From: Catellatospora sp. IY07-71
GTDB taxonomy: Bacteria; Actinomycetota; Actinomycetes; Mycobacteriales; Micromonosporaceae
DNA: 64,000 nt
Reading direction: 5' to 3'
Assembly (NCBI RefSeq): GCF_018326265.1
Contig: NZ_AP023360.1
Coordinates: forward strand, 4,869,501-4,933,500
Below are positions 3,084 to 64,000 of this stretch, piece by piece. The notes beneath the pieces were generated by a model. It did not search any database and was not told where the DNA came from. It was given only the letters and a program-made list of their open reading frames with translations. Positions within the stretch are counted from its first letter, which is position 1, and every line of letters begins with the position of its first letter. The position numbers and the translations under genes were made by a program.

Positions 3084-3161
3084 CAGGCGGGTGTTTCGCC
3101 AAATTAGGGGCTGTTTGTCCTAGTTGTGCCACGATGGGGCCTGATCGAGTGGAGGCCTCGA

Positions 3162-7243: not shown

Positions 7244-7322
7244 GGTCGCGACGTTAGATCCCGTCACGTGCGGCCGCCACGGGATATCGAGCCGCGTCCG
7301 CCGCTACAGCAGGTCGGGTGGA

Positions 7323-45424: not shown

Positions 45425-45430
45425 CGGGCC

Positions 45431-46363: not shown

Positions 46364-46379
46364 CCGGCGAGGTGGCACC

Positions 46380-47603: not shown

Positions 47604-47703
47604 CGCCAGGTGTCGACCACGTCACAGCGGGAGCCTGTCACACACGTGCGCCGACGGGAGTCATCCAGGTGAAAGCCGCCGCCACTCCCGAGGAGCACGC
47701 GCC

Positions 47704-48051
47704 ATGCACACCGCCTATGTCGTCGTCACCGTCCTGGCCGCCCTGTGGGTCGGCTTCTCGTCGGTCTCGCTGTTCCGCCGCGCGGACTTCGTGGTCGCCC
47801 CGCTGGTGAGCTACGGCGTCCCGCGTTCCTGGTGGCCCTGGCTGGCCACCGCCAAGGGCACCGGGGCGCTGGGCCTGCTCGTCGGCCTGATCATCCCGGC
47901 GGTCGGGGTGGCGGCGGCGATCGGCCTGATCCTGTACTTCACCGGTGCCGTGATCACGGTGCTGCGCGCCCGCTCGTACCGGACCCTCGCCTTCCCGGTG
48001 CTGTACCTGGTCCCGGTCGCGGTGGCGCTTGCCCTCGGCATGGCCGCCTAG
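47704..48051 (+). CDS. DoxX-like small membrane protein
   Basis: The 115-residue protein consists of four membrane helices: VVVTVLAALWVGFSSVSLF, a region near residues 45-65, VGVAAAIGLILYFTGAVI and FPVLYLVPVAVALALGM. The layout and the GVPRSWWPWLATAKGTGALG stretch match the DoxX-like family (PF13564). Members have been linked to redox or quinone-related functions but most are uncharacterised. GAGGAG precedes the ATG. It is alone, 100 bases after the second epoxide hydrolase, and could be read through from it. Confidence 0.78.
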   Translation: MHTAYVVVTVLAALWVGFSSVSLFRRADFVVAPLVSYGVPRSWWPWLATAKGTGALGLLVGLIIPAVGVAAAIGLILYFTGAVITVLRARSYRTLAFPVLYLVPVAVALALGMAA

Positions 48052-48075
48052 CACCGCGCCTGGCCGATCACGCGG

Positions 48076-48118
48076 TGACGCCGTCCCCGGGACCACGTCG
48101 GTCCCGGGGACGGCGTCA
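48076..48118. terminator. Bidirectional terminator hairpin
   Basis: A perfect 19-bp stem (TGACGCCGTCCCCGGGACC and its complement) with loop ACGTC lies between the convergent DoxX-like and SGNH hydrolase genes. Confidence 0.85.
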
Positions 48119-48120
48119 GC

Positions 48121-49794: not shown

Positions 49795-49831
49795 GGGCGT
49801 GCCTCCGTGGTATGGATTCCAGATGCTTCGA

Positions 49832-49845
49832 TGGAAGCGCTCCCA
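49832..49845. promoter_or_regulatory. CebR-like operator
   Basis: TGGAAGCGCTCCCA matches the published CebR operator TGGGAGCGCTCCCA at 13 of 14 positions. CebR is a LacI-type repressor released by cellobiose or cellotriose. The site is 38 bases before the start codon of a secreted esterase with a cellulose-binding module, where a repressor would act. No cebR gene is in the window. Confidence 0.7.
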
Positions 49846-49886
49846 CCATGCCGTGGACTTCGCGCGGAAGTCAAGGCGTACGCGAT

Positions 49887-49930
49887 GATCGGGAGCTGCC
49901 GCCACGCTGCTCCGGCGGCAGCTCCCGATC
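49887..49930. terminator. Terminator hairpin after the HMA gene
   Basis: A perfect 17-bp stem (GATCGGGAGCTGCCGCC and its complement) with a 10-base loop, starting 8 bases after the minus-strand HMA gene ends. It separates the metal island from the SGNH hydrolase promoter. Confidence 0.8.
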
Positions 49931-49937
49931 GGGGAGG

Positions 49938-50159
49938 TCAGGGGGTGGCGTCAAGCACGGCTTGATAGCCGGCCGCGGTGATCGCGGCGGCGATGACGGC
50001 CGGGTCCAGGCCGTCGTCGGCGGTCACCACGGTGCGGCCGCGGCGCACGGACGTCTCCGCCCGCTGGACGCCGGCGACCTCTTCCTCCAGCGTCTCGTCG
50101 ATGAGGATGCCGCAGCTGGCGCAGTGCATGCCGGTCACCGCGAAGGTGTAGGTGGTCAC
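49938..50159 (-). CDS. Heavy-metal-associated (HMA) domain protein, CopZ-like
   Basis: This 73-residue cytoplasmic protein is a single HMA domain with the metal motif GMHCASCGILIDE. The Cys pair binds Cu(I) or a similar soft metal and passes it to a membrane partner. The GTG start overlaps the stop codon of the preceding TauE/cupredoxin gene by four bases, so both are translated together. The fold (alternating strands, DETLEEEVAGVQRAETSV) has the normal length for CopZ, with a somewhat acidic surface. No copper ATPase is encoded in the window. Confidence 0.85.
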   Translation of the reverse strand: MTTYTFAVTGMHCASCGILIDETLEEEVAGVQRAETSVRRGRTVVTADDGLDPAVIAAAITAAGYQAVLDATP

Positions 50160-51232
50160 GGCGTCGCCTCCGTGATCGTCAGGCGGCCGGTGTACATGCC
50201 CATGCTGCACGAGTACGCCAACGTGCCGGGCTTGAGCACGCCGAGGTCGATGCGCGTGTCGCCGCTGATCGGCAGGATCTTCTCGATGCCCAGGTCCGGG
50301 ATCACGAACGCGCGCACGCAGCCGCGCGCCTTCGCCGACCGCACGATCAGCGTCGTGGGCAGACCGGCGGCGACCTGCAGGCTGGCGGGCTCGTAGGCGC
50401 CGGTGACCGCGCTGACGACCACCGTCTGGCGGCCGTCGGCGACGGTCACCCGGTCCCCGGTGACGGCGTCCGGTTCGTCGCCGCCCAGGCCGAGCGCGTA
50501 CGCCAGCTGGCTGGCCGCCACGGGGGAGCCGGACAGTTCCAGGCCGCCGTTGAGGGTGTACGCGCCCAGGGCGAGGACCACCACGCCGGTGGTGACGGCG
50601 AGGCGGCGGGCCCAGGCGCCGGCGGCGCGGCGGGCGCGGGCGGCGGCGTAGCCGAGCAGCGTGAACAGCGGCGCGGTGCCGAGGACGAACACCGCCATGA
50701 TCGCGGCGCCCTGCCACGGCGAACCGGACGCGACCGCCAGCGCCATCACCGACAGCGTCACCCCGCACGGGATGAGCACGCTGGCCACGCCGAGCACCGC
50801 CGGGGCGAGCGCGGACTGCGACCGGGCCCTGCCCCGCACCAGGCGCGTCCACGATGCCGGGGGAGTGAAGGTGAGGCCGCGGAACGCCTTGACGCCCAGC
50901 TGGGCCAGGCCCATCGCGATGATGAGCAGCCCGGCGCCGACCTGGACCATGGCGCGCACGTGCATGCCCAGCTGGACCGCGGTGCCCAGGAGGCCGAGCA
51001 GGACGCCGAGCAGCGTGTGCGACAGCAGCTTGCCGGCGAGGAATCCGCCGACGGGGGCGAGATCGTCACCGGGCCCGGCGGCGGGCTGCCCGCGGCGGGG
51101 GCCGGGATCGGCGGGGACGGGCCGGCGCTGGCGGGAGACCAGGCCTGCCAGCAGGCCGCCTTGCACGGCGGCGCAGGACACGCCGCCGGCCAGCAGGCCG
51201 AGCAGCAGTACGGAGACAAGATTGACCGACAC
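50156..51232 (-). CDS. TauE/UreH-type membrane protein with C-terminal cupredoxin domain
   Basis: The 358-residue protein begins at a GTG (VSVNLVSVLLLGLLAGGVSC) and has six to seven membrane helices to about residue 250, with a conserved Cys in GGVSCAAVQGGLL and another in SVLIPCGVTLSVMALAVASG, features of the UreH-like (cytochrome biogenesis/SafE) group. The last 100 residues form a cupredoxin-like domain with GYEPASLQ-type strands (TGAYEPASLQVAAG) and the metal motif YSCSMGMYTG. The domain probably faces outward and binds copper. It is coupled to the HMA protein gene, so the pair may move copper across the membrane. Confidence 0.8.
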   Translation of the reverse strand: MSVNLVSVLLLGLLAGGVSCAAVQGGLLAGLVSRQRRPVPADPGPRRGQPAAGPGDDLAPVGGFLAGKLLSHTLLGVLLGLLGTAVQLGMHVRAMVQVGAGLLIIAMGLAQLGVKAFRGLTFTPPASWTRLVRGRARSQSALAPAVLGVASVLIPCGVTLSVMALAVASGSPWQGAAIMAVFVLGTAPLFTLLGYAAARARRAAGAWARRLAVTTGVVVLALGAYTLNGGLELSGSPVAASQLAYALGLGGDEPDAVTGDRVTVADGRQTVVVSAVTGAYEPASLQVAAGLPTTLIVRSAKARGCVRAFVIPDLGIEKILPISGDTRIDLGVLKPGTLAYSCSMGMYTGRLTITEATP

Positions 51233-51274
51233 GGGAGCAGGAACCCTTTCACGGAGGAGGACAACTCGACTAAC

Positions 51275-51297
51275 ATCCATACCCATGGATTTATGGG
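51275..51297. promoter_or_regulatory. Overlapping dyads upstream of the TauE/cupredoxin gene
   Basis: ATCCAT-ACCC-ATGGAT (51275-51290) overlaps CCCAT-N6-ATGGG (51282-51297). Copper sensors of the CsoR type bind related TACCC/GGGTA dyads, but the match is only partial. The site is 43 bases before the start codon. Confidence 0.4.
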
Positions 51298-51309
51298 AGT
51301 CGGTTGCTC

Positions 51310-51699
51310 CTATGTGCGCAGGATGCACAACTGGGCGAGCGTCGCCGTCCGGGGTGGTGGCCCGGCCGCCCGCAGGGGCGTGAGCCCGGCCCGGCGCAGC
51401 AGGGCAAGCAGCCGCAACGGGTCGGCCATCAGCCAGAACGCCGCCGCGATGGAGGCCAGCACGCTGAGGCAGGCCGCGAGCAGGCCGTGCCCGCCGTCGT
51501 CGGACGGTCCCTCGGGATGCCAGGTCATGGCTGCATGGTGGGGCCCGGCGTCCGCCGTCACGGTGGTGACCGGGAGCAGCAGGGGCGACATCTCCGCGCC
51601 GCACTGCCAGGACTGCCACAGCCCGAGCCCGGCCAGCAGCAGCGCGACGAGCGCGACGCGCACCGGCATCCGGGCCGGTCGCGTCGCGGTGTGCTGCAT
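51310..51699 (-). CDS. Small membrane protein of unknown function
   Basis: The 129-residue protein has a first helix (VRVALVALLLAGLGLWQSWQ), a polar loop with His residues and one Cys (SWQCGAEM; DAGPHHAAMTWHPEG), a second helix (LLAACLSVLASIAAAFWLM) and a basic tail ending LCILRT. The His-rich loop and the position in a metal island suggest metal contact, but I recognise no family. TATCCT lies seven bases before the ATG, and no ribosome binding site is visible, so the message is probably leaderless. It precedes the TauE/cupredoxin gene in the same direction. Confidence 0.65.
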   Translation of the reverse strand: MQHTATRPARMPVRVALVALLLAGLGLWQSWQCGAEMSPLLLPVTTVTADAGPHHAAMTWHPEGPSDDGGHGLLAACLSVLASIAAAFWLMADPLRLLALLRRAGLTPLRAAGPPPRTATLAQLCILRT

Positions 51700-51780
51700 G
51701 TGGACAGGATAGGGTCCGGCCGGCCGGTGGCGGGAGCGACATCCGTTTCCATGTTCATGTTGCGATGAATTCACGATTCG

Positions 51781-51805
51781 CTGTACTGTGCTGGTCATGG
51801 TGTAC
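51781..51805 (+). promoter_or_regulatory. TGTAC motifs upstream of the metal-transport genes
   Basis: CTGTACTGTG (51781-51790) and TGTAC (51801-51805) precede the plus-strand operon. The 8-mer TGTACTGT also forms one half of the perfect dyad at the CmtR-like gene (53411-53436), so both may be sites for the same regulator. Here the two half-sites face the same way and do not form a palindrome. Confidence 0.4.
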
Positions 51806-51834
51806 GTCAATATGCTGTGCGCGGGCGGGTGGCG

Positions 51835-52458
51835 ATGACGGCCGCGTGGTTCGCGCTGACGGCCAACCTCACCGGCGCCGTCTACGCCTTCGGGGTGCGC
51901 AGCTACCTGGCCTGGCGCGCCACCCGTGACACGGGCATGCGGCTGGGCACCCAGCCGCCGGGCTCGCTCGCCTGGTGGGCCAGGGTGCTGTTCGTCGGGG
52001 CGCTGGCGCTGCTGCTCGCCGCGCCGGTGGCGGCGCTGGCGGGCCTGCCGGCTCTCGCCGTGGCCACCGCCGTGACCGTCACCGGTGCGGTGCTCACCGC
52101 CGCCGGGACCGTCATGGTGGTGCTGGCGCAGCTGACCATGGGCTCGTCCTGGCGGGTCGGGGTGGACCCGGCCGAGCGCACCGACCTGGTGGTGGGTGGG
52201 CTGTTCCGGTTCTGCCGCAACCCGATCTTCACCGCGATGGGCATGACGGCCGCGGGCACACTGCTGCTGGTGCCGAACCTGGTCAGCGCGGCCGGCCTGG
52301 TGGCGCTGCTCGTCGGGGTGCAGTTGCAGGTGCGCGTGGTCGAGGAGCCGTACCTGCTCGGCGCGCACGGCGCGGCCTACCGTCGGTACGCCGCCCGCAC
52401 CGGCCGGTTCCTGCCGCTGGTGGGCCGCCTGAAGACCGCCGCCCTGGGGGAGGCGTAG
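51835..52458 (+). CDS. Isoprenylcysteine carboxyl methyltransferase-like membrane protein
   Basis: The product of about 207 residues has five hydrophobic helices and the C-terminal signature of the ICMT/NnrU-like family: GLFRFCRNPIFTAMGMTAAG followed by the RVVEEPYLLGAHGAAYRRYA stretch. The E-E-x-x-L-x-x-x-x-G-x-x-Y motif binds the SAM cofactor. Bacterial members methylate unknown lipids or small molecules and often sit next to metal-transport genes. Start choice between ATG and a GTG six bases earlier is open. The CDF gene follows without a gap, so both are in one operon. Confidence 0.78.
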   Translation: MTAAWFALTANLTGAVYAFGVRSYLAWRATRDTGMRLGTQPPGSLAWWARVLFVGALALLLAAPVAALAGLPALAVATAVTVTGAVLTAAGTVMVVLAQLTMGSSWRVGVDPAERTDLVVGGLFRFCRNPIFTAMGMTAAGTLLLVPNLVSAAGLVALLVGVQLQVRVVEEPYLLGAHGAAYRRYAARTGRFLPLVGRLKTAALGEA

Positions 52459-53427
52459 ATGCGCGAGCATCACGACCACGACCACGACGGACACTCGCAC
52501 AGCGTCAGCGTCAGCGCCGACGCGGACCGGCGCTGGCTCGCCGTCGCGCTGGTGGTCATCGCCGGGTTCATGCTGGTCGAGGTCGCCGTCGGGGTCGTCG
52601 CACAGTCGCTGGCGCTGATCTCGGATGCGGCGCACATGCTCACCGACGCCGCCGCGATCGTGCTGGCGCTGTTCGCCCTGCGGATCGCGGCCCGGCCCGC
52701 CGGGGGCCGCTACACGTTCGGCCTCGCCCGCGCGGAGGTCCTGTCCGCGGCGGCCAACGGGCTGAGCCTGCTGCTGCTGGCCGGCTGGCTGGGCGTGGAG
52801 GCGGCCGGGCGGCTGGCCGACCCGCCGCCGGTCACCGGATGGATGGTCGTGGTCACGGGCGTGCTCGGGCTGGCGGTCAACGTGGTGGCCGCGTGGGCGA
52901 TCAGCAGGGCCGACCGCGCGCGCCTCAACATCGAGGGGGCCTACCAGCACGTGCTGATGGACATGTTCGCCTCGGGCGCGGCCGTGGCCGCCGGTGTGGT
53001 GGTGATGCTGACCGGCTGGGTGCGCGCGGACGCGGTCGCGACCCTGGTGGTCGTCGCGCTGATGGTCAGGGGTGCGTGGCCGCTGCTGCGCGAGTCGGGC
53101 CGGGTGCTGCTCAACGCGGCCCCCGCGCACGTGCGCCCCGACGACCTCGGCACCGACATGCTGGCCGTCGACGGCGTGGTCGAGGTCCACGACCTGCACG
53201 TATGGGCACTCGACGGCGAGCAGGCCGCGCTGTCGGCGCACGTGCTCGTCGGCGAGCCGGCCGACTGCCACGAGGTGCGCCAGGCGCTCGAGCGCAGGCT
53301 GGCCGCCGCACACGGGATCCGGCACACCACCCTGCAGGTCGACCACTTCGGCGAGCGGCCTGCCGACGTCGAGCACTGCGAGGTCGCGCACGGCCAGGTG
53401 CATCGCCGTCGACAGTACAGCGGATGA
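52459..53427 (+). CDS. CDF cation efflux protein, CzcD-like
   Basis: The 322-residue protein has an His/Asp-rich N terminus (EHHDHDHDGHSH), six membrane helices, and the transport site made by SDAAHMLTDA in helix 2 and YQHVLMDM in helix 5 (H-x3-D twice), which favours zinc, cobalt or cadmium. The cytoplasmic C-terminal domain (about 215-310) has VDGVVEVHDLHVWALDGEQA and ends in HTTLQVDHF. It exports metal ions in exchange for protons. GGGGGAGG precedes the ATG. Its stop overlaps the start of the CmtR-like gene by four bases. Confidence 0.92.
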   Translation: MREHHDHDHDGHSHSVSVSADADRRWLAVALVVIAGFMLVEVAVGVVAQSLALISDAAHMLTDAAAIVLALFALRIAARPAGGRYTFGLARAEVLSAAANGLSLLLLAGWLGVEAAGRLADPPPVTGWMVVVTGVLGLAVNVVAAWAISRADRARLNIEGAYQHVLMDMFASGAAVAAGVVVMLTGWVRADAVATLVVVALMVRGAWPLLRESGRVLLNAAPAHVRPDDLGTDMLAVDGVVEVHDLHVWALDGEQAALSAHVLVGEPADCHEVRQALERRLAAAHGIRHTTLQVDHFGERPADVEHCEVAHGQVHRRRQYSG

Positions 53428-53436
53428 TGTACTGTC
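53411..53436. promoter_or_regulatory. Perfect dyad at the start of the metal-sensor gene
   Basis: GACAGTACA-N8-TGTACTGTC overlaps the end of the CDF gene and the start codon region of the ArsR-type sensor. ArsR/SmtB repressors bind dyads of this size next to their own genes. Bound protein would block transcription from an internal promoter. Confidence 0.6.
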
Positions 53437-53780
53437 GGGACGTGGAGACCATCGGCGCCCTCACCCACGGGCAGGTTCTGGCCCGCTTCGGCCACGCCCT
53501 GTCCGACCCGACCCGCGCGCGGCTGCTGCTGGCCCTGCGGGATGCCCCCGCCTACCCCGCCGACCTGGCCGACCTGCTCGGCGTGAGCCGGCAGAACCTG
53601 TCCAACCACCTCGCCTGCCTGCGCGGCTGCGGCCTGGTCGTGGCGACCCCGGAGGGACGCCGCTCGCGCTACGAGCTGTCCGACCCGCGCCTGGCGCACG
53701 CCCTCGGCGACCTGCTCGGGGTGGTGCTGGCGGTCGACCCGAGCGTCTGCCCGGCCGCGCAGACCGAGGAATGCTGCTGA
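53424..53780 (+). CDS. ArsR-family metal sensor, CmtR-like
   Basis: The 118-residue winged-helix repressor reads MMYCRDVETIGALTHGQVLA at the N terminus and VSRQNLSNHLACLRGCGLVV in the recognition helix. The Cys pair in ACLRGC matches the metal ligands of mycobacterial CmtR (Cys57 and Cys61), the N-terminal MxxC matches its Cys4 and a C-terminal Cys-rich tail (VCPAAQTEECC) can supply the third ligand. CmtR responds to cadmium and lead. It overlaps the CDF gene by four bases and the next transporter gene by one, so it likely controls the operon it lies in. Confidence 0.88.
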   Translation: MMYCRDVETIGALTHGQVLARFGHALSDPTRARLLLALRDAPAYPADLADLLGVSRQNLSNHLACLRGCGLVVATPEGRRSRYELSDPRLAHALGDLLGVVLAVDPSVCPAAQTEECC

Positions 53781-54478
53781 TGACCGGACTGCCGCAGCTG
53801 CGGCTCGGCCCGCCTCCGGCCCGCCGGGCGGTGCTGGCCCGCCGGGTGCGGCTGCTGGTCGCCGCGACCATCGCCTACAACGTGATCGAGGCGGTCGTCG
53901 CGATCACGGCCGGGCGCGTGGCCGGCTCGACCGCGCTCATCGGCTTCGGACTCGACTCGATCATCGAGGTGTCCTCGGCCGCTGCCGTGGCCTGGCAGTT
54001 CTCCGCCGCCGACCACGAGGCCCGGGAGCGTTCGGCGCTGAGGATCATCGCGGTCTCGTTCTTCGCCCTGGCCGCCTACGTCACCTTCGAGGCCGTGCAG
54101 GCGCTGGTCGCGGGCCACCGCCCCGAGCACTCCACGGTCGGCATGGTGCTGGCGGCGCTGTCGCTCGCGGTGATGCCGGCGCTGTCGTACGCCCAGCGCC
54201 GGGCCGGGCGGGAGCTCGGCTCGCGCAGCGCGGTGGCGGACTCGAAGCAGACGCTGCTGTGCACGTACCTGTCGGCGGTGCTGCTGGTGGGGCTGGCGGC
54301 GAACAGCCTGCTCGGCTGGTGGTGGGCCGATCCGGTCGCGGCGCTGGTCATCGCGGTGGTCGCGGTCAAGGAGGGCCGGGAGGCGTGGCGCGGCGACGCC
54401 TGCTGCGGCCCGGCGGCGGCGCTGCGTCCCGGTGCCGAGTGCGCCGACGGGTGCTGCTCCACCGGGGCCGACGGCTGA
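53780..54478 (+). CDS. Short CDF-type cation transporter
   Basis: The 232-residue membrane protein has five or six helices, with GFGLDSIIEVSSA and ADSKQTLLCTYLSA in the positions of the metal site (DS and D replacing the first and second H-x3-D), the pattern of a distinct CDF branch. It lacks the usual C-terminal domain and ends instead in a Cys-rich tail (ACCGPAAALRPGAECADGCC). GAGGA lies nine bases before the ATG, which overlaps the sensor stop codon. It may export or import a soft metal such as cadmium or mercury; direction is not shown by sequence. Confidence 0.82.
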   Translation: MTGLPQLRLGPPPARRAVLARRVRLLVAATIAYNVIEAVVAITAGRVAGSTALIGFGLDSIIEVSSAAAVAWQFSAADHEARERSALRIIAVSFFALAAYVTFEAVQALVAGHRPEHSTVGMVLAALSLAVMPALSYAQRRAGRELGSRSAVADSKQTLLCTYLSAVLLVGLAANSLLGWWWADPVAALVIAVVAVKEGREAWRGDACCGPAAALRPGAECADGCCSTGADG

Positions 54479-54479
54479 G

Positions 54480-54794
54480 TTACGCGTCGTCGCGCCGGTG
54501 GAAGCTCTCACCCGCGTGATCGGGGTCCGTGTACACCTTCAGGGTGCCGTCGGGGTACGCCGCGAACGGCAGGATCACGCCGTCGGGGCAGCGGTGCAGG
54601 AACATCAGCGTCGGTCCCACCACGACGAAGGAGTACGCCTCGGCCGTGGCGTCCTCGTGCCCGTGCTCGGCCCGCCACTGCTGGACCCGCTCGGCGATGC
54701 CCGGCTGCGCCGACGTGTCGTTGACCTTGCCGATGAGATCGTCCACGGCCGGCCGGTCCAGGATCTCGATCTGCAGATTCCGAAGCTGGCTCAT
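54480..54794 (-). CDS. Small hypothetical protein
   Basis: The 104-residue acidic protein reads MSQLRNLQIEILDRPAVDDL and later AYSFVVVGPTLMFLHRCPDG and GTLKVYTDPDHAGESFH. It looks like a compact alpha/beta domain with no membrane helix or signal. I do not recognise the family. GAGAGGGG lies seven bases before the ATG. It is convergent with the second CDF gene, only one base between the stop codons. Confidence 0.65.
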   Translation of the reverse strand: MSQLRNLQIEILDRPAVDDLIGKVNDTSAQPGIAERVQQWRAEHGHEDATAEAYSFVVVGPTLMFLHRCPDGVILPFAAYPDGTLKVYTDPDHAGESFHRRDDA

Positions 54795-54847
54795 CGCCGG
54801 GCCCCTCTCAGCGCATCCGGCGCACGACCGTGCGCTCTATCTCGACC

Positions 54848-55216
54848 CTAGGCCCGGCTCCCCGGCGCGCGGGTGAGTTTCACCAGCAGCTCGGTGTCGT
54901 TGTGGTGGCCTTCGAAGTCCGAGAACTCACCCGCCACGAAGGTCCAGCCGCCCTCGGCGATGAGCGTGCGGAGCCGGTCCAGGGGCAGCCGGGCCACTGT
55001 CGCGGGCGCGTCCCACTCCCCGCCGATGACCTCCTCGACCCGCTCGGCCAGGGCCTCGATCGTGTCGAACTCGTCCGGATCGACGTCCTCGACTTCGAAC
55101 CAGGTGCCCTCGGTCGCACGGCGGAGCAGCTCGGCGTCCGCCTTCTCGGGCGAGTCGATGTCCTCGTCCCATTCGTGCTCGAAGAAGGAGAAACGGAGAA
55201 GGACGCTCTCGGTCAT
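54848..55216 (-). CDS. Small acidic hypothetical protein
   Basis: The 122-residue protein is strongly acidic (LRFSFFEHEWDEDIDSPEKA, EVEDVDPDEFDTIEALAERV) and shows a strand-helix-helix-strand pattern. No motif for catalysis is evident and I do not recognise the family. It starts MTESVLLRFSFF and has no clear ribosome binding site. It lies between another small hypothetical gene and the sigma factor fusion, all on the same strand with gaps near 50 and 107 bases. Confidence 0.6.
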   Translation of the reverse strand: MTESVLLRFSFFEHEWDEDIDSPEKADAELLRRATEGTWFEVEDVDPDEFDTIEALAERVEEVIGGEWDAPATVARLPLDRLRTLIAEGGWTFVAGEFSDFEGHHNDTELLVKLTRAPGSRA

Positions 55217-55323
55217 CGCAGGATCGTACAAGCGGCGCCCGCCCCGGGCGGGGGCGGCCGCCGACCCGTGCGCAGGACCTGGTCCGGCCGACCTCTTCGG
55301 GCGAGGGCCGGTGCGCCCGGCGC

Positions 55324-56862
55324 TCACTCGGCCAGCGGCGGGCGGACCCGGAAGGCGCTCTCCGCCTGGAAGGCCGCCGAGCCGTCGCTGTGGTCGACCC
55401 ACAGCTGCGTGCCACGCCGGTGCACGAACCAGCCAGGGTAGTTCGACGCTTCGAGCAGCACCGTGCCCGCTGACGGCCCGGGGCGTACGCAGAAGGTGGC
55501 GTCGCCGCGGAACAGCTCCGTGCCGATCGCCGGGTCCAGCCGCAGCCGCCACGAGGAGTGGCGCAGGTAGCGGCCGTCCGAGGCGCGGAAGGAGAAGCAC
55601 TTCGCGTCGGCCAGACCGGAGACGGCCTGGAAGGTCGCCGTTGCGCGCGTGTCGGCGCCGCTGGCGGCCGACAGCGGCGCCAGCACGGCCAGCCCGTCCG
55701 CGGTCGTGGCGAACAGGCCGGGCTCACCGCCCGCCTCCAGCGAGAACGGCCCGGTCGTCAGCGGGGCCGCCGGGGCCGGTGACGACCGCGTGGTGGCGCT
55801 GGGGGCCGGACGGGTGCGGGAGGGGCTCGGCGAGGGTGGCAAGGCGGCAGATGTGGTCACGGCCGGTGGCTGCGGCGCCACGGTGGACGGGGGCGGCGCG
55901 GGTGACGGCGACGGCCAGGCGATCGCGGCCACCGCGGCGGCGGCGACCACGGATCCGGTCACGGCGGTCGCGGCGATCGGCGAGGCCGCGAACGTCTTCG
56001 CGAGATTGCCGAGCACCCCGGCCTTGGCTGCCAGCGTCACCGACGACGTCCCGGTGACGGCGCCCTTGCCGAGCACGGCGGCGGTGAGCGCGACCGGGAC
56101 GGGCAGCAGGGCGAACCCGGTCAGCAGCTGCTCGGCGGCGACCAGTCCGCCCGCGGCCCCGGCGCAGGTGGCGCAGTCGCGCACGTGCCGGGTCAGGCGC
56201 TTGCGCCAGGCCGAGCCCGGCGTGCCGTCCCACCCGGCGGCCAGGCTCTCCAGCCCGGGGCAGCGCGGCCGCTCGTCGAGGGCTGCGAGCAGGGCGCGGC
56301 ACTGCTCCAGCTGCTGCCGCAGGCGCTGAACGCGTACCCCGGCGTGGGCCACGCTCACCCCGGCGGCCGCCGCCAGCTCGGTGCGGGTCAGCCTGCCCGC
56401 GACCTCCAGCCACCACAGCGAGAGCAGCACCCGGTCGTCGTCGTCCAGCCACCGGGCGGCGAGGGCCGCCTGCCGCCGCTGCGCGGCGACGTTCAGGCGC
56501 AGCATCGTCACGCCCTCGAACGACGCGTCCGCGTCGGCCGTCTCGATCAGGTCGTCGAGCCCGCCGCCGGTGTACGGCTCGGCGCTGCGCCGCCGCTGCA
56601 GGTGGGTGCTGACCTGCCGGACGGCGATGGTGCCCAGCCACGCCCGGAAGGTGCGCGGGTCGCGCAGTTCGCGCAGCTCGCGTACGGCGCGCAGCATGGT
56701 CTCCTGCACCACGTCGTCCACGTCGGCGCCGGAGCCGAGGGCACGGCGCACGATGGTGTACGCGAAGGGCAGGTACGTCTCGAGCAGGGCGGCGAGCGCA
56801 CGCCGGTCGCCCGCTTGCGCCGCGGTGACGAGAGCGGCCTCGCCGGTGCTGGTGGAAGGCAT
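55324..56862 (-). CDS. ECF sigma factor fused to zinc-finger, membrane helix and AbfB ectodomain
   Basis: The 512-residue protein combines an ECF sigma factor and a surface sensor. Region 2 lies at about residues 15-90 (VDDVVQETMLRAVRELRELR) and region 4 at about 140-195 (ELAAAAGVSVAHAGVRVQRL). Near residue 224 is HVRDCATC (H-x3-C-x2-C), the ZAS anti-sigma signature. A hydrophobic stretch near 300 (AVTGSVVAAAAVAAIAWP) can span the membrane. After a Pro/Ser linker, residues about 372-512 match the AbfB domain (CBM42), with SFRASDGRYLRHSSWRLRLD, binding arabinofuranose side chains. A free sigma factor would need proteolysis or conformational release. No ribosome binding site is clear. It diverges from the phosphatase/B12 operon. 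Confidence 0.85.
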   Translation of the reverse strand: MPSTSTGEAALVTAAQAGDRRALAALLETYLPFAYTIVRRALGSGADVDDVVQETMLRAVRELRELRDPRTFRAWLGTIAVRQVSTHLQRRRSAEPYTGGGLDDLIETADADASFEGVTMLRLNVAAQRRQAALAARWLDDDDRVLLSLWWLEVAGRLTRTELAAAAGVSVAHAGVRVQRLRQQLEQCRALLAALDERPRCPGLESLAAGWDGTPGSAWRKRLTRHVRDCATCAGAAGGLVAAEQLLTGFALLPVPVALTAAVLGKGAVTGTSSVTLAAKAGVLGNLAKTFAASPIAATAVTGSVVAAAAVAAIAWPSPSPAPPPSTVAPQPPAVTTSAALPPSPSPSRTRPAPSATTRSSPAPAAPLTTGPFSLEAGGEPGLFATTADGLAVLAPLSAASGADTRATATFQAVSGLADAKCFSFRASDGRYLRHSSWRLRLDPAIGTELFRGDATFCVRPGPSAGTVLLEASNYPGWFVHRRGTQLWVDHSDGSAAFQAESAFRVRPPLAE

Positions 56863-57068
56863 GTCCGTGTCGCTGTCTTCAGTGGATCGGGGGCTCGACT
56901 CTGGCCGAGGAACGGCGTGGCGTCAAGCGGCCCGCGCGGCGGTCGGCGAGATCGCGCCCGGCGAACGACGGAGTGACCGGCGTCACGATTAGCGGATCGC
57001 GCTGGCGGGTAGTGTCCCGAGGACCCGTGCCGTCGGCGATGCGGGGGCGGTCGTGGCAGGGTAGGGGC

Positions 57069-58742
57069 ATGAGCGAAGAGATCACGACGGTGCGGCCGCA
57101 GCCTCCCCTGGCCTCTGATCCTCTTGCCGTGAACGTTTTCACCGGCCACGACACCGCCGGCCCGGACGGTCCGGCCGCGCCCGCAGACCTCGACGGGATG
57201 CCCTGGGCCGAGCTGCTGGACGGCTCCGACGAGATGATCTTCACGGTCGACCGCGGCGGCGTCGTCCGTTTCGCCAACGCCGAGGCGGTGCGCGTCCTCG
57301 GCGTCGCGGCCGGACGGGCCGTGACCGCCCCGCCGCTGGCCGCCGTCGTACAGGGACCGCCGGGCGCGTTCGACGCCGACCTGGCCGAGCGGCGGTTGCG
57401 CGGCCGCGGCGTGCGCTCCGGCGAGCACACCCTCTGGTATGTCCGCGACGTCACCGAACAGGTCATGCGCGTCGACGCGCTGCTGGCCGAGCGGTGGCGC
57501 TCGGCGTTCCTCGCCGACGCGGGCCGCCGCCTCGGCTCCTGCCTCAACCGCGGGCGCGCCGCGCGGACCACGGCGCTGCTCGCCGTGCCCGCGCTGGCCG
57601 ACTGCGCCGTGGTCGTCTGCGACGACGAGCGGGAGCTGTCCTGGATCCGGATCGACGCCGGTCCCGAGGACCGGACGGAGAGCGCCGGCACGCTGCCGAG
57701 GTGGGGCGTGCCGCCCGGCAGCGCCCTGGACCAGGCCCTGACCGGGCTCACCGTGCAGGACGACCCCCGGCTCGGCGAGGACATCGCCGCCCTGCTCGCC
57801 GACGGGTTCGGGCCGGTCGGCTCGGCGATGGTCGTGCCGCTGCCGGGCCACGGCCTGCCGGCCGGGGCGCTGGTGCTGGCCCGGCATGCCGGCCGTGCGC
57901 CGTTCGAGGCGGTGGAGGTGCACCTGGTCCGCCAGTTCGCGGCACGGGCGGGCGCGGCGATCAGCGCCGCCGCGCTGTACGCGGCCCAGGCCGACGCCGC
58001 GGAGCTGGTGCAGCGCAGTGTCGAGCCGCCCGCGCTGCCGCAGGTGCCCGGTGTCGCGCTCGGCGCCGCCTACCGCCCCGCGTGGGAGCGGCTGCGCATC
58101 GGCGGCGACTTCTACGACGTACGCCCCGGTCCCGACGGCCGGTGGATGTTCGTGCTGGGCGACGTGTGCGGCAAGGGCATCGAGGCCGCCGTGCAGTCGG
58201 GCAACATACGCCAGAGCCTGCGCGCGCTGTGGCTGACCGAGTCGTGCCCGTCCCGGCTGCTCGACCTGCTCAACCGGGCGACGCTGACCGGTGACGGGCC
58301 GACGCTGGCCACGCTGATGATCGGAGCGATGACGCCGGAACCCGACGGCTCGCTCACGGTGAGCCTCGCCACCGGCGGTCACGCGCCGCCGCTGCTGATG
58401 CGGGCCGCCGACGAGGCGGCCGAGGTCGACATCTCCGGCACCGCCATCGGCCTGCTCCTCGACGCGCCGTTCGGGCAGGCACAGGTCGTGCTCGGGCCGG
58501 GCGACGCGCTGGTCCTCTACACCGACGGCGTCACCGAGGCCCGCGGCAGGTCCGCCGACCGCCCGTTCTTCGGCCCGCAGCGGCTGGCCGCCGAGTTGCA
58601 GGCCTACCGTGGCGCACCCGCGGCGGTCATCGCCGAACGCGTCGCGCAGCGGGTCACCGACTGGGTCGGCGACCGCCTTCAGGACGACATCGCGGTGCTC
58701 GTGATCCAGGCCGCGGGCGGGCCGACGGGACCAGCAGCATGA
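57069..58742 (+). CDS. PAS/GAF/SpoIIE-type protein phosphatase
   Basis: The 557-residue protein has a PAS-like domain (about residues 50-130: EMIFTVDRGGVVRFANAEAV), a GAF-like domain (about 150-310, including CAVVVCDDERELSW and MVVPLPGHGLPAGALVLARH) and a PP2C SpoIIE phosphatase (about 325-550). Metal-binding residues appear in IGGDFYDV, VLGDVCGKG, LYTDGVTEARG and DDIAVLVI. Such enzymes dephosphorylate anti-anti-sigma factors and so activate a sigma factor. The B12-binding protein gene starts 13 bases downstream with a perfect ribosome binding site. The signal input and the target are not visible in the window. Confidence 0.88.
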   Translation: MSEEITTVRPQPPLASDPLAVNVFTGHDTAGPDGPAAPADLDGMPWAELLDGSDEMIFTVDRGGVVRFANAEAVRVLGVAAGRAVTAPPLAAVVQGPPGAFDADLAERRLRGRGVRSGEHTLWYVRDVTEQVMRVDALLAERWRSAFLADAGRRLGSCLNRGRAARTTALLAVPALADCAVVVCDDERELSWIRIDAGPEDRTESAGTLPRWGVPPGSALDQALTGLTVQDDPRLGEDIAALLADGFGPVGSAMVVPLPGHGLPAGALVLARHAGRAPFEAVEVHLVRQFAARAGAAISAAALYAAQADAAELVQRSVEPPALPQVPGVALGAAYRPAWERLRIGGDFYDVRPGPDGRWMFVLGDVCGKGIEAAVQSGNIRQSLRALWLTESCPSRLLDLLNRATLTGDGPTLATLMIGAMTPEPDGSLTVSLATGGHAPPLLMRAADEAAEVDISGTAIGLLLDAPFGQAQVVLGPGDALVLYTDGVTEARGRSADRPFFGPQRLAAELQAYRGAPAAVIAERVAQRVTDWVGDRLQDDIAVLVIQAAGGPTGPAA

Positions 58743-58755
58743 AGGAGGTCGATAC

Positions 58756-59784
58756 ATGACCACTGCCGTGTCCGAAGCGGACCGCGCGCGATACCTCGAC
58801 CTGGTCGGCCAGGGCGCGCAGGCGCCCGCCGTCGATTTCGCGCTCGCCCTCGCCGAGCGGGGCGTGCCGCCCCGCGACGTGCTGCTCGACCTGGTCGCAC
58901 CGACCCAGGCGGTGATCGGCGACCGGTGGGCGCGCAACGAGTGGAGTGTCGCCCAGGAGCACGCGGCGACCCATGTCAGCGAGCACGTGGTCGCCGCGCT
59001 GGCCGCCCACCACCGGCCGCGAGCCGCCGAGCGGGGCATCCTCGTGGTGGCGTGCGTGGACGGCGAGTGGCACGCGCTGCCCGCACGGCTGTTCGCCGAG
59101 GTGGTCCGCTGGGACGGCTGGGACGTGCGGTTCCTGGGCGCCAGCGTGCCGGGGCCGCACCTGATCTCCTACCTGCACCGCCACGGCCCCGAGGTGGTGG
59201 CCGTCAGCTGCTCGGTGCCGACCCGGCTGGCCGCCGCGCACCGCGTCATCGAGGCGGCGCAGAGCACCGCGACGCCCGTGCTGGCCGGCGGCCGCGGGTT
59301 CGGCCCGGCGGCGTGCTGGGGGCGGACGCTGGGCGCCGACCGGGTGGCCGGTGACGCCCGCGAGGCGATCGAGGTGCTGCGCACCTGGCCGGGGCTGTCC
59401 CTGGCCGAGAGCGAACCGCGGCGCGAGTCGTTCGTCAGTGACGACGAGCACGTGCTGATCGCCAAGCGCGGTCCGCAGCTGGTCGCCTCCGGCATGGAGG
59501 CCCTGGCCGAGCGGTTCCCCGTGGTGGGCCGCCACACCCCGGCCCAGCGGGAGGCCACCGAGTTCGACCTCGGCCAGATCGTCGAGTTCCTGTGCGCCGG
59601 GCTGCTCGTCGATGACCCGGAGCTGTTCGGGACGTTCCTCGACTGGCTCTGCGTCGTCCTGGGCACCCGGCATGTCCCGCTGCCCACGGTCGACCTGGTG
59701 CTCGACGTGTACCAGCAGCAGCTCTACGACTTTCCCCGGGCGCGGGCGCACCTCGCCGCCGGGCGCCGTCGGCTGGTTCGCTGA
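58756..59784 (+). CDS. Cobalamin-binding protein with CarH-type photosensory motif
   Basis: The 342-residue protein has the cobalamin cap (about residues 5-85) and B12-binding Rossmann domain (about 90-205). W58 is followed by nine residues and E68-H69 (W-x9-EH), the motif of CarH/LitR-type light sensors that bind adenosylcobalamin. The lower axial His is H106 in VDGEWHALPA, 37 residues later, close to the 35 seen in CarH. There is no DNA-binding domain. The C-terminal 110 residues are helical (IVEFLCAGLLVDDPELFGTF) and resemble the RsbRD-type stressosome N-terminal domain. With GAAGGAGGT upstream and a phosphatase gene 13 bases before it, it probably passes a light or B12 signal to a sigma-factor cascade. 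Confidence 0.82.
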   Translation: MTTAVSEADRARYLDLVGQGAQAPAVDFALALAERGVPPRDVLLDLVAPTQAVIGDRWARNEWSVAQEHAATHVSEHVVAALAAHHRPRAAERGILVVACVDGEWHALPARLFAEVVRWDGWDVRFLGASVPGPHLISYLHRHGPEVVAVSCSVPTRLAAAHRVIEAAQSTATPVLAGGRGFGPAACWGRTLGADRVAGDAREAIEVLRTWPGLSLAESEPRRESFVSDDEHVLIAKRGPQLVASGMEALAERFPVVGRHTPAQREATEFDLGQIVEFLCAGLLVDDPELFGTFLDWLCVVLGTRHVPLPTVDLVLDVYQQQLYDFPRARAHLAAGRRRLVR

Positions 59785-59797
59785 GGCACGAGCGCCC

Positions 59798-59992
59798 CTA
59801 CGGCGACTCCTGCAACGGCCACACCTCGACGACCCCGTGCGCGACGGCGCAGGGTGAGGCCGAAACGAGCTGTACCGCCTCCTCCAGCGCACGCAGCCGG
59901 TCGTCGTGGGCGTGTGCCGCATCCCGCAGCGCGGGGTCGGTGCGGTCGTAGCCTTCCCGGCTGCCATACCCGATGGTCACGAACCTGGCCAC
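59798..59992 (-). CDS. YCII-like small protein
   Basis: The 64-residue product starts at a GTG seven bases after AGGAGG and reads VARFVTIGYGSREGYDRTDP. The pattern KFVTIGYGxxAGYDRTxxAxR is that of a group of short YCII-related proteins, here shortened: the second half keeps only a helix (AHAHDDRLRALEEAVQLV) and a strand. The catalytic His-Asp pair of YCII enzymes is not complete. Function unknown. It is convergent with the B12-binding protein gene. Confidence 0.65.
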   Translation of the reverse strand: MARFVTIGYGSREGYDRTDPALRDAAHAHDDRLRALEEAVQLVSASPCAVAHGVVEVWPLQESP

Positions 59993-60112
59993 AGTGACAC
60001 CTCCTCCCGCTCGGCTACCCCGCCCGGCGTGGGGCAAACCATCACATCGGGCTGTATGTCCAGACACGGTCCCGGCGGGTTCGCGGGGGTGCGGGACGGG
60101 TAGGCGCCGTGC

Positions 60113-61762
60113 ATGAGCACCACCGCGGCTGGATCCTGGCAGACGGGCACGCTGCTCGACGACCGCTATCGGCTTGCCGCGCCCGTCGGCAGCGGCGGCA
60201 GCGCCACCGTCTGGCAGGCCCGTGACGAGCGGCTCGGCCGCATGGTCGCCGTGAAGCTGCTCAATCCGCGGTTCGTGGCCGACGAGTGGGCGGTGCAGCG
60301 GCTGAGCACCGAGGCGCAGGCCCTGGCCCGGCTGCGGCACCGCCACATCGCCGAGGTGTACGACTTCGGCCTGGACCGCCAGGACGACCGGGTCCCGGTC
60401 GCGTTCCTGGTCATGGAGCTGATCGACGGCAGTTCCGTCGGCCAGGCGCTGCACGGCGGGCGAAGCCTGCCCTGGCCGCAGGCCGTCGCGGTCGCCGCGC
60501 AGACCGCCGGTGCGCTCGCCGCCGCGCACGCCCGCGGAGTCGTGCACCGCGACATCGCGCCCGGCAACATCCTGCTCACCGGCGACGGCGTGCAGATCAT
60601 CGACTTCGGCATCTGCGCCTCCACGGGCAGCGACGAGGTCGGCCCGGACGGCAACCTGATCGGCACCCCGGCCTACCTCGCACCCGAACGGGTCGACGGG
60701 CAGCCGGTCCAGCCCGCCGCCGACGTGTACGCCCTGGGCGTGCTGCTGTACCGCATGCTCAGCGGCGAGCTGCCCTGGCGGGCCGACACCCCGGTCGGCC
60801 TGCTCACCGCGCCGCGTTTCCGGCCGCCGGATCCGTTGCCCGACATCGAGGGCCTGCCCCCGGCCGTCGCGGCGGCGGTGACCGCCTGCCTCGACCGCGA
60901 TCCCGCCGCCAGGCCCACGGCCGCGCAGCTCGCGCAGACCCTCGGCGAGGTGGACATCGCCGGTCCGGCGGCGGCCGTCGGCGCGGCGCTGCCCGCCGAT
61001 GCCGCCGCCACCCTGACCCACATCCTGCCCTGGCAGCCGCTTGCCGAACCCGCCGTGCCCCGCCGCCGCGGCCGTACGGTGGCGCTCGCGGCCGGGGTCG
61101 CCGGACTCGCCGCAGCCGCCGTCGCGGTATGGGTCCTGAACGGCTCCAAGCCGTCCGAGCCTTCGACGGCGGTGCCCGCCGCCAGCGCCCCGCCCGCGTG
61201 CGACGCGACTTTCCAGCTGCGCGACGACACCGGCCGCCGATTCGCGGCGACGGTCACGGTGGTCAACGCCGCCGGGGACACCCGGAGCCCGGCACGGATC
61301 TCGTTCGACCTGCCCGGCACGCAGCGCGTCGACACCGACGCGCGGTGGCGGCAGGACGGCCGGACCGTCACCGCCACCGGCACCCGGGAGCTGGCTCCCG
61401 ACGCCCGGCTGAGCCTGCCCGTCAGCTGGACCTATCAGGAGAGCAATCCGCTGCCGACCGCGTTCCGGCTCGACGGCCGGCCGTGCGCGGCGTCCCTGCT
61501 CGGACCGGCGGGCGCGCCCATCACCGGACAGCCGAGCCCGACCGTCCAGGCGCCCGGATCCGCCGAGCCCACCGGCCCGGTGCCGCCGCCGCAGCAGAGC
61601 CCCGGAACGGATCCGGAACCGGCTTCACCCAGCCCCGAGCCCAGCCCGACGGAGGCCGCGAGCCCGCCCGCGCCCTCACCGTCCACAGCGGAGGACGGAC
61701 AGGAGGAGGACGTCACCGGGCAGCCCGCCGCAGGAAGTGGACCGCTGGGCAGACCTTGGTAG
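60113..61762 (+). CDS. Membrane serine/threonine kinase with CBM2-like ectodomain
   Basis: The 549-residue protein has a kinase domain at about residues 16-285: glycine loop VGSGGSATVW, Lys in MVAVKLL, catalytic VVHRDIAPGNILL, IDFGICAS and the APE motif in YLAPERVDG. A membrane helix lies near 325-343 (LAAGVAGLAAAAVAVWVLNG). The extracellular part (about 363-465) begins with CDATFQLRDD and ends with a paired Cys in GRPCAASL; its spacing of aromatic and Val residues resembles a family 2 carbohydrate-binding module. A Pro/Ser-rich tail follows. It may sense a polysaccharide and phosphorylate cytoplasmic targets. Confidence 0.83.
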   Translation: MSTTAAGSWQTGTLLDDRYRLAAPVGSGGSATVWQARDERLGRMVAVKLLNPRFVADEWAVQRLSTEAQALARLRHRHIAEVYDFGLDRQDDRVPVAFLVMELIDGSSVGQALHGGRSLPWPQAVAVAAQTAGALAAAHARGVVHRDIAPGNILLTGDGVQIIDFGICASTGSDEVGPDGNLIGTPAYLAPERVDGQPVQPAADVYALGVLLYRMLSGELPWRADTPVGLLTAPRFRPPDPLPDIEGLPPAVAAAVTACLDRDPAARPTAAQLAQTLGEVDIAGPAAAVGAALPADAAATLTHILPWQPLAEPAVPRRRGRTVALAAGVAGLAAAAVAVWVLNGSKPSEPSTAVPAASAPPACDATFQLRDDTGRRFAATVTVVNAAGDTRSPARISFDLPGTQRVDTDARWRQDGRTVTATGTRELAPDARLSLPVSWTYQESNPLPTAFRLDGRPCAASLLGPAGAPITGQPSPTVQAPGSAEPTGPVPPPQQSPGTDPEPASPSPEPSPTEAASPPAPSPSTAEDGQEEDVTGQPAAGSGPLGRPW

Positions 61763-61883
61763 CGTCGCACACCCGACGGGCATGTCAGCGGAGCCGGCCG
61801 GTCGGACCACGACCGATCGGCGCCGCAGGCAGAACCGATGCTCCGTGCCACCCCCGGCGCGGCGAGTGTGAAGCGAGGTCGCG

Positions 61884-64000
61884 ATGGTCGCCGCCGCCCA
61901 CAGCCGTGAGGCGCGTGCCCTGGTCACCGAGGCCGCAGACGCGCAGCGTGCCGCCCGGGCGGTGCTCGACGCCGAGCAGCGGCTGCTCGCCGAGATCCGC
62001 GGCCTCGCCGACACCCACCGGCGGCAGTCGCTCGACGAGCGCCTGCACCAGGCAGACCTCACCCGGCTGCGGCAGGCGGCGGACGGCAGACTGCGGCTCG
62101 GGCCGCTGCAGGCGGCCGGGATCACCACGGTCGGGCAGCTGATCGCCCGGCGCCACCAGCTCCACCAGGTCCCCGGCATCGGGCGGGCCACCGTCGCGCA
62201 GCTCGAAGGCGCCATGGAGGCCCTGGCCGCCGAGGTCGAGGCGGAGACCGCGCTGCGCCCCGACCCCGACCGCCGCTCACCGGCCGACACCCACCTGCTG
62301 CGCTCGCTGCACCGGCTGCTGCTGGTGCGCCGCCGGGTGCGGCCCGCCCTAGGCCGGGCCGGTGAGCTGCACGACGCCATCGCCGGCCGGATCGAGGCGG
62401 CCCGGCGGGCCAACAGCCGCTGGCGCAGCCTGTTCCGTGGCCGCCAGGGCCGCGAGGCGGACCGGGCCGCGCTCGCCGAGCTCGAGGCGGCGCTGCGCTC
62501 GCCACGGCTGGAGACCGCCCGGGCCAAGGTGCACGCCGCCGAGGCGGCCCTGGCCAAGGAGCCGACCGATCAGCAGCTGTGGCGCAGGTACCAGGCCGAC
62601 GCCGCGAGCTACCTGACGCTGCTGGCCGAGGCGACCGGCCGGGAGACCAGCGGGCGGACCGGGCAGCTGCCGTCCGACACCGCCGCCCGCGTCGACCAGC
62701 TGCGCCTGGACACCAGCCTGCTGAACTCCAGCCTGCGCGGGTACCAGTCCTTCGGCGCGCGGTTCATGATCGCGCAGCGGCGGGTGATCCTCGGCGACGA
62801 GATGGGTCTGGGCAAGACGGTGGAGACCCTCGCCGCCATGTGCCACCTGGCGGCGCAGGGCGAGCGGCACTTCCTGGTCGTCTGCCCGCCGAGCCTGGCC
62901 GGCAACTGGATGCACGAGATCCGGCGGCACTGCCGGCTCACCCCGCGCCTGCTGTACGGCGGCGACGCCGCCAAGAACACCGCCGCCTGGCGCACGCACG
63001 GCGGTATCGGCGTGACCGCGTACACGGCGCTGGAGCGGCTGGACCTCAAGGGTGTGCAGCTCGCCATGGTGGCGTTCGACGAGGCGCACTACATCAAGAA
63101 CCCCACCGCCAACCGCACCCGGCGCAGCCGCCGCGTCATCGATCACGCCGAACGGGTGGCCCTGCTCACCGGCACCCCGCTGGAGAACCGGGTGGAGGAG
63201 TTCGGCGTGCTCACCGAGCACATCAACCCCGACGTCGCCCGGGAGGCCGCCGCGGCGTCCTCACCGGACGCGTTCCGGCAGGCCATCGCTCCGGCGTACC
63301 TGCGCCGCAACCAGTCCGACGTGCTCGACGAGCTGCCCGGCCGGATCGAGACGGTGCAGCCGGTGACGCTGTCCGCCGAGGAGGCCGCCGCCTACCGCAA
63401 GGCCGTCTGGGAGGGGCACTTCATGACCATGCGCCGGGCCACCTTCGGTGATCCGACCGGGACGTCGACCAAGCTCGACCACGTCCGCGAGATCGCCGGC
63501 GAGGCGCTGGCCGAGGGCCACAAGGTGGTCGTCTTCTCGTACTTCCGCGACGTGCTGACCGCGGTGACGGCGGCGCTGGGCGACCGGGCGCACGGGCCGC
63601 TCACCGGTTCCACCCCGCCCCTGCAGCGCCAGCAGGTCATCGACGCGTTCACCGCGAGCCGGAGACCGGCCGTGCTGGTCAGCCAGATCGAGGTCGGTGG
63701 CGTCGGCCTCAACCTGCAGACCGCCTCGGTCGTGATCCTGATCGAGCCGCAGTGGAAGCCCAGCACGGAGGAGCAGGCCATCGCCCGCTGCCATCGGATG
63801 GGCCAGGTCCGGCCGGTGCAGGTGTTCCGCCTGATCGCCGAGGACACCGTGGACACCAGCATGCGGGAGCTGGTCGCGGGCAAGGCCGCGCTGTTCGACG
63901 AGTACGCCCGGCCCAGCGCGGCCAAGGAGGCCAACGCGCAGGCGGTCGACGGCGGCGACGGCACCCGGGCCACCGCCGAGAAGAAGATCATCGAGCAGGA
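61884..64000 (+). CDS. SNF2-family helicase with N-terminal helix-hairpin-helix (3' end outside)
   Basis: The gene runs off the right edge after 705 codons. The N terminus is helical with a helix-hairpin-helix element (GITTVGQLIARRHQLHQVPG, then IGRATVAQLEGAM) near residues 70-110, followed by coiled-coil-like helices to about 250. The SNF2 ATPase starts near 280: motif I ILGDEMGLGKTVE near 305, motif II VAFDEAHYIKN near 397, LTGTPLENRVEEF and, in the second lobe, VSQIEVGGVGLNLQTA and ARCHRMGQVRPV. It should move along double-stranded DNA and displace bound proteins. GCGAGG precedes the ATG. The preceding gene is the kinase, 121 bases away. Confidence 0.87.
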   Translation, partial: MVAAAHSREARALVTEAADAQRAARAVLDAEQRLLAEIRGLADTHRRQSLDERLHQADLTRLRQAADGRLRLGPLQAAGITTVGQLIARRHQLHQVPGIGRATVAQLEGAMEALAAEVEAETALRPDPDRRSPADTHLLRSLHRLLLVRRRVRPALGRAGELHDAIAGRIEAARRANSRWRSLFRGRQGREADRAALAELEAALRSPRLETARAKVHAAEAALAKEPTDQQLWRRYQADAASYLTLLAEATGRETSGRTGQLPSDTAARVDQLRLDTSLLNSSLRGYQSFGARFMIAQRRVILGDEMGLGKTVETLAAMCHLAAQGERHFLVVCPPSLAGNWMHEIRRHCRLTPRLLYGGDAAKNTAAWRTHGGIGVTAYTALERLDLKGVQLAMVAFDEAHYIKNPTANRTRRSRRVIDHAERVALLTGTPLENRVEEFGVLTEHINPDVAREAAAASSPDAFRQAIAPAYLRRNQSDVLDELPGRIETVQPVTLSAEEAAAYRKAVWEGHFMTMRRATFGDPTGTSTKLDHVREIAGEALAEGHKVVVFSYFRDVLTAVTAALGDRAHGPLTGSTPPLQRQQVIDAFTASRRPAVLVSQIEVGGVGLNLQTASVVILIEPQWKPSTEEQAIARCHRMGQVRPVQVFRLIAEDTVDTSMRELVAGKAALFDEYARPSAAKEANAQAVDGGDGTRATAEKKIIEQ

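Follow-up and report, generated by a model that had tools for sequence, protein, structure and literature searches.

How might a B12-binding protein without a DNA-binding domain exert its output when its gene lies directly behind that of a SpoIIE phosphatase? This question is raised by a 64,000-nucleotide stretch of the genome of Catellatospora sp. IY07-71 (contig NZ_AP023360.1, positions 4,869,501 to 4,933,500; hereafter the window, with coordinates counted from its first base), for which a preliminary description had proposed a CarH-like light sensor acting on the phosphatase by protein contact in a stressosome-like pathway. Our analysis identified the B12 protein, on the evidence of its sequence, as a standalone photocobilin, a photoreceptor of adenosylcobalamin (AdoCbl) and biliverdin by family, and we consider it probable that the gene pair provides the light-sensitive input to a partner switch. 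The features on which this reading is based are the key residues of the photocobilin, the apparently intact motifs of the phosphatase, the conservation of the pair, and a frequent third gene predicted to encode a STAS protein.

Results

Both genes are read on the forward strand. The phosphatase gene (P0001; 57069-58742), an open reading frame of 557 aa, is followed by a 13-base spacer (58743-58755, same strand) and the photocobilin gene (P0002; 58756-59784; 342 aa), which confirmed the distance originally described. The perfect ribosome binding site noted in that description corresponds to the Shine-Dalgarno sequence AGGAGG within the spacer, 7 bases before the photocobilin ATG. The genome carrying the pair comprises 8.6 Mb on one contig, and the photocobilin is 96% identical to a protein of Catellatospora bangladeshensis.

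A phmmer search of solved-structure sequences matched residues 8-340 of the B12 protein to SasPcob of Saccharothrix syringae (PDB 8J2W, dark; 8J2X, light; E ~1e-79) and, more weakly, to 8J2Y (AbPcob, the domain structure of AbDPcob; E 4e-45). Along its length, the protein can be divided into a B12-binding_2 four-helix bundle (58786-59001; residues 11-82; Pfam, 8.2e-12) with the putative adenosyl cap W58/E68/H69, a B12-binding Rossmann domain (59041-59379; residues 96-208; Pfam, 5.7e-19) with H135 and an E104-x-H106 motif providing the candidate lower axial histidine, and a C-terminal photoglobin (biliverdin) domain (59431-59781; approximately residues 226-342, with the start placed by eye) containing D271 and W297, all on the forward strand. 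Eight residues of SasPcob (W61, E71, H72, E106, H108, H137, D270, and W296) were compared with their counterparts in the window protein (W58, E68, H69, E104, H106, H135, D271, and W297), and all eight were identical; the cap residues are also shared with AbPcob. In an alignment of 79 relatives, W58, E68, H69, E104, and H106 were kept in 79/79 loci, and H135, D271, and W297 each in 78/79. According to Zhang et al. (2024, PMC10979010), D270 of SasPcob is held mainly responsible for biliverdin binding; its equivalence to D271 therefore indicates that this residue is present in the window protein, unlike in AbPcob, which has a histidine. The B12 motifs of photocobilins (W...EH and E/D-x-H), homology to photoglobins, and the residues of the bilin pocket were thus all found in the window protein.

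These results bear on several details of the preliminary description. Its W58-x9-E68-H69 motif was correct, as was its axial histidine, H106, 37 residues after H69, and the DNA-binding domain that it reported missing was also not detected in our Pfam scan of the B12 protein, which gave no helix-turn-helix family. The C-terminal half, which had been taken for an RsbRD-type helical domain, is by sequence a photoglobin, since the near-full-length match to the solved SasPcob extends through it, and no RsbRD model appeared among the 17 families listed at E<=1 for P0002 and 47 relatives. The Phycobilisome family was weakly matched by 7 of these 48 proteins (best, 2.3e-4); when 20 members were viewed singly, the only match position viewed, that of L017, lay in the C-terminal half (E 0.037, below the cut-off). 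The RsbRD remark was not far off in terms of fold, as photoglobins are distantly related to the RsbR globin, which serves as their outgroup in PMC10151467. Membership of the CarH repressors was rejected because a MerR-type DNA-binding domain is lacking, residues 11-82 are already occupied by the B12 four-helix domain, and the NCBIfam CarH model scored only 47 against a cut-off of 400. An RsbRD or stressosome identity was likewise rejected on the grounds that the protein gave neither an RsbRD match nor, in the Pfam scan, a STAS domain. A separate B12-binding protein encoded elsewhere in the same genome (L002, ~C1:7413957) has a MerR-like N-terminus by eye and a cap tryptophan that is seemingly replaced.

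The phosphatase matched SpoIIE (9.4e-40), GAF (2.4e-5), and PAS (5e-4) in Pfam, as previously described, although the PAS match (20.5 bits) falls just under the cut-off of 22.6. Its SpoIIE (PPM/PP2C) domain spans approximately residues 355-547 by Pfam, and the acidic motifs GGD347FYD, GD365VCGKG, YTD486GV, and D539D540IA, which we presume to hold metals, were conserved in an alignment of the 79 loci plus the window protein, in which L009 is truncated: D347, D365, and D486 occurred in 79/79 rows having a residue at the position, and D539 and D540 in 80/80. This arrangement of a SpoIIE/PPM domain with acidic motifs behind sensor domains corresponds, as judged from the protein sequence, to the RsbU/RsbP-type architecture. 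A LOV-type PAS domain was rejected by eye only, as the LOV-type cysteine motif was not seen in the PAS stretch.

Conservation of the pair was surveyed in 79 named loci, derived from the best 80 of 346 relatives in one contig scan. A SpoIIE gene lay directly upstream of the photocobilin gene on the same strand in 79/79 loci, and the two were neighbors as called genes in 78/79, the contig of L009 holding only the SpoIIE end. Depending on the choice of start codons, the two genes overlapped by 4 bases in 58/79 loci and by 1 base in 10/79 under one rule, or in 49/78 and 10/78, respectively, under another; the overlap in L021 is 4 bases. Such frequent overlap suggests that the pair may be translationally coupled. 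The distances of the photocobilins and SpoIIE proteins were correlated across the 79 sequence pairs (r = 0.97); this value was not counted as evidence because both proteins follow the species tree.

As the 79 loci were the best-scoring ones, the set was widened by phylum and order samples. The phylum sample comprised 396 genomes, and the family profile gave matches in 66 of them at E<=1e-20, often through the B12 domain alone; among the 30 loci fetched, SpoIIE was upstream in 9/9 close full-length loci (our own included), and 8 others matched mainly by the B12 domain. The order sample comprised 397 genomes, of which 110 matched SasPcob at E<=1e-30, and SpoIIE was upstream in 30/30 of the best loci. 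In a FastTree phylogeny of 104 sequences, one of them a duplicate of the window protein, all SpoIIE-linked photocobilins grouped with SasPcob in one clade (support, 0.998), and the closest relatives of SasPcob that were found (L127 and L128; 64-65% identical) both have SpoIIE upstream. The gene pair was therefore kept in every clade member examined, and the search for the same pair in other genomes that the preliminary description had recommended was successful. Given 11 SpoIIE matches in the 8.6-Mb genome and an assumed gene number, we estimate the chance adjacency of the pair at ~0.1-0.2%, so its recurrence in 79/79 and 30/30 loci exceeds what would be expected by chance. In L107, one of the loci matching mainly by the B12 domain (1570-2085), a SpoIIE match is located ~0.9 kb downstream on the same strand (3018-3548).

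A small STAS gene came next on the same strand in 34/79 named loci, 30 of them with a 4-base overlap, while L014 and L045 showed no gene after the photocobilin. In the order sample, a STAS match was found shortly downstream of the photocobilin match on the same strand in 26/30 loci. Three of the next-gene proteins and the STAS protein of L021, whose gene is near but not adjoining, were assigned to STAS/STAS_2 in a Pfam check. At the phosphorylatable position, the alignment showed serine in 33/34 operonic STAS proteins and proline in L047. STAS was absent as the next gene from the Catellatospora loci (the window, L004, L005, L006, and L021) and from the Actinoplanes group; L021 has HATPase-cluster genes in addition to its STAS gene nearby. 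The Catellatospora sp. IY07-71 genome contains 28 STAS_2 matches and 48 HATPase_c_2 matches, 26 of the latter above the family cut-off. In L008 (Hamadaea tsunoensis), the photocobilin gene is followed by a gene (7080-7901) whose product has a MEDS domain (4e-32) and, toward the C-terminus, weakly matches STAS_2 (2.8e-4, below the cut-off); it may represent another form of the STAS output.

With respect to the chromophores, the genome encodes one heme oxygenase, a source of biliverdin, and one cobalamin adenosyltransferase (PF01923); both biliverdin and AdoCbl are therefore plausibly made in this organism.

Discussion

Photocobilins bind AdoCbl and biliverdin, and excitation of either chromophore cleaves the Co-C bond in the ternary complex; chromophore binding and light chemistry have been demonstrated in SasPcob and AbDPcob, SasPcob changes from a dimer to a monomer upon illumination, and a separate photocobilin alters the activity and oligomeric state of a diguanylate cyclase (PMC10979010). 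According to PMC12143880, RsbT orders the linker of RsbU in the general stress response, and the PAS phosphatase RsbP has an analogous partner in RsbQ. Taken together, these partner-switched phosphatases and the action of a separate photocobilin on a cyclase led us to read the window pair as a light-gated partner switch, and the retention of the pair across many related bacteria makes it probable that the phosphatase is under the control of light.

In the dark, the photocobilin would bind AdoCbl through the W58/E68/H69 cap, with H106 under the cobalt, and biliverdin in the D271/W297 pocket, and would dimerize head to tail. The Co-C bond would be broken by green light or, through absorption by the bilin, by red light, whereupon the adenosyl group would leave and the dimer would open. 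The opened photocobilin may then change SpoIIE activity by directly binding the phosphatase with which it is probably co-translated, either the PAS/GAF domains or the helical linker being the probable contact site. We regard light as more likely to switch the phosphatase on, as in AbDPcob. The active phosphatase would dephosphorylate an anti-anti-sigma STAS protein at its serine, and the STAS protein would in turn bind an anti-sigma kinase and free a sigma factor. Contact with SpoIIE, the sign of the light effect, the STAS target in Catellatospora, and the sigma factor are the parts of this scheme that we infer. The action by protein contact anticipated in the preliminary description thus persists as an inference, given that the pair is kept in every clade locus with STAS often next, while its stressosome label was abandoned: the protein gave no STAS domain and no RsbRD match, and a partner switch such as RsbQ-RsbP is the closer analogue. 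We would only slightly favor the wider proposal that a translationally coupled PAS-GAF-SpoIIE/photocobilin/STAS module of three genes in Micromonosporaceae, mycobacteria, and Streptomyces puts an alternative sigma factor under the control of green and red light through partner switching, with B12 and biliverdin jointly sensing the light and with the STAS target of Catellatospora encoded elsewhere.

Among known systems, SasPcob is closest to the window protein, with near-full-length homology, identity at the eight compared residues, a standalone form, and membership of the same clade; the differences are that the window protein comes from Catellatospora and that the link of SasPcob to SpoIIE and STAS came from the network analysis in PMC10979010. 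AbDPcob has the same B12 plus photoglobin architecture and places an output enzyme under light control, but it is fused to GGDEF and has a histidine for the bilin Asp, whereas the likely partner of the window protein is a separate SpoIIE phosphatase. CarH and LitR share the B12 domain, the W-x9-EH cap, and the E-x-H axial motif; the window protein differs in lacking their MerR-type DNA-binding domain and in possessing an additional photoglobin. In the RsbQ-RsbP and RsbT-RsbU pairs of Bacillus subtilis, a separate partner likewise controls a PPM phosphatase (PAS-bearing in RsbP) acting on an anti-anti-sigma STAS protein (PMC12143880), although the partner in the window is a photoreceptor rather than an alpha/beta hydrolase or RsbT. 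Flavin photoreceptors, including the LOV-STAS protein YtvA and SpoIIE-bearing proteins, feed light into SpoIIE/STAS signaling, as described in PMC4844311, but they do so with flavin, blue light, and sensor and output in one protein, whereas the window system would employ B12 and bilin in a separate protein.

Several observations weigh against a light-gated switch or restrict its reach. Gene order is a functional link and establishes neither contact nor direction. Among the distant full-length photocobilins of the phylum sample (13 of 17 fetched; flanks read over ~1.5 kb or less, and only 0.6 kb in L095), SpoIIE was directly upstream in 2/13 (L099 and L100) and not in 11/13, which limits the SpoIIE link to one clade. 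L099 and L100, whose genus we take to be Mycobacterium because the same-genus locus L084 is nearest to the named Mycobacterium loci, are divergent and keep SpoIIE and the AdoCbl residues with Ala or Thr in place of the bilin Asp. The window locus has no adjacent STAS gene, a six-frame reading of 59701-60200 revealed no STAS-like frame by eye, and when the genome was searched with a profile of 16 operonic STAS proteins, no hit was clearly ahead of the others (the top three scored 64.1, 63.5, and 61.8 bits). The published AdoCbl-only SasPcob acted with the opposite sign (PMC10979010), which makes the sign of the light effect uncertain. Finally, light may be one input only, since PAS and GAF domains are present in the phosphatase itself.

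The residue pattern of L099 and L100 would also suit an explanation in which the B12 protein adjusts SpoIIE not to light but to cellular AdoCbl (B12 status) or to heme/bilin turnover. The same AdoCbl-binding residues would serve whether or not light is sensed. We consider this unlikely, given that the W/EH cap and the bilin-side residues are near-invariant in the 79 loci and that SasPcob, a member of the same clade, is photoactive (PMC10979010). A different target for the photocobilin, perhaps a diguanylate cyclase like that of AbDPcob, with SpoIIE merely co-expressed, would be in line with the published action of photocobilins on such cyclases (PMC10979010) and with a recurrent neighbor in the Actinoplanes group: in 32/79 loci, all from Actinoplanes and near relatives, SpoIIE is preceded by a nuclease-like (Exo_endo_phos) gene and, beyond it, a GGDEF-EAL gene (e.g., L024:760-2955; one protein per cluster was checked against Pfam). 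This neighbor may tie light to cyclic di-GMP there, but the cluster was not found in the other 47/79 loci or among the genes called in window positions 45001-64000, and the sole constant neighbor was SpoIIE (79/79 and 30/30 loci), which renders another target improbable. Still less credible, indeed very improbable, is a stressosome-like complex in which an RsbR/RsbRD C-terminal half assembles with STAS partners. The distant relationship between RsbR globin and photoglobins (PMC10151467) speaks for it, but none of the 48 members matched RsbRD, the protein is without a STAS domain, and the solved SasPcob is dimeric in darkness and monomeric when illuminated.

The photoreceptor family was already known, and a link to SpoIIE and STAS had already been suggested in PMC10979010, in which the function of standalone photocobilins is called less clear and a network analysis points to STAS, SpoIIE, and PP2C-like proteins as potential partners of SasPcob, suggesting a role in stress response. 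The conserved operon supports this suggestion. Our additions are the extent of the clade, the retention of the coupled pair by all of its members that were examined, and the frequent presence of a third gene for a STAS protein with its serine. Literature searches returned no paper on this operon, and PMC10979010 was the sole B12-photoreceptor paper found to mention SpoIIE; the photoglobin paper of Schneider (2022, PMC8717448) may already describe the neighborhood, and no priority is claimed. The main text of a paper on light-dependent pigmentation in M. kansasii (PMC9861118) contains none of the terms B12, cobalamin, photoreceptor, SpoIIE, and SigF, and pigmentation is treated only as a lead for a possible output. 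By naming the likely partners of the photocobilin, a phosphatase and a probable STAS substrate, the operon turns the question of function into one testable in vitro with three purified proteins. If the light-gated partner switch is correct, many soil actinobacteria and mycobacteria would possess a stress pathway controlled by B12 and bilin, and the pair could possibly serve as a two-protein green/red optogenetic phosphatase switch.

The genes flanking the pair in the window have features of their own. Downstream of the photocobilin lies a Ser/Thr protein kinase gene (60113-61762, forward strand), which is also found in L006 and is not the next gene in L004, L005, and L021. The divergent upstream gene (55324-56862, reverse strand) encodes a protein of odd sigma-factor architecture, in which sigma-70 region 2 is joined to an AbfB (arabinofuranosidase-type) domain at the C-terminus.

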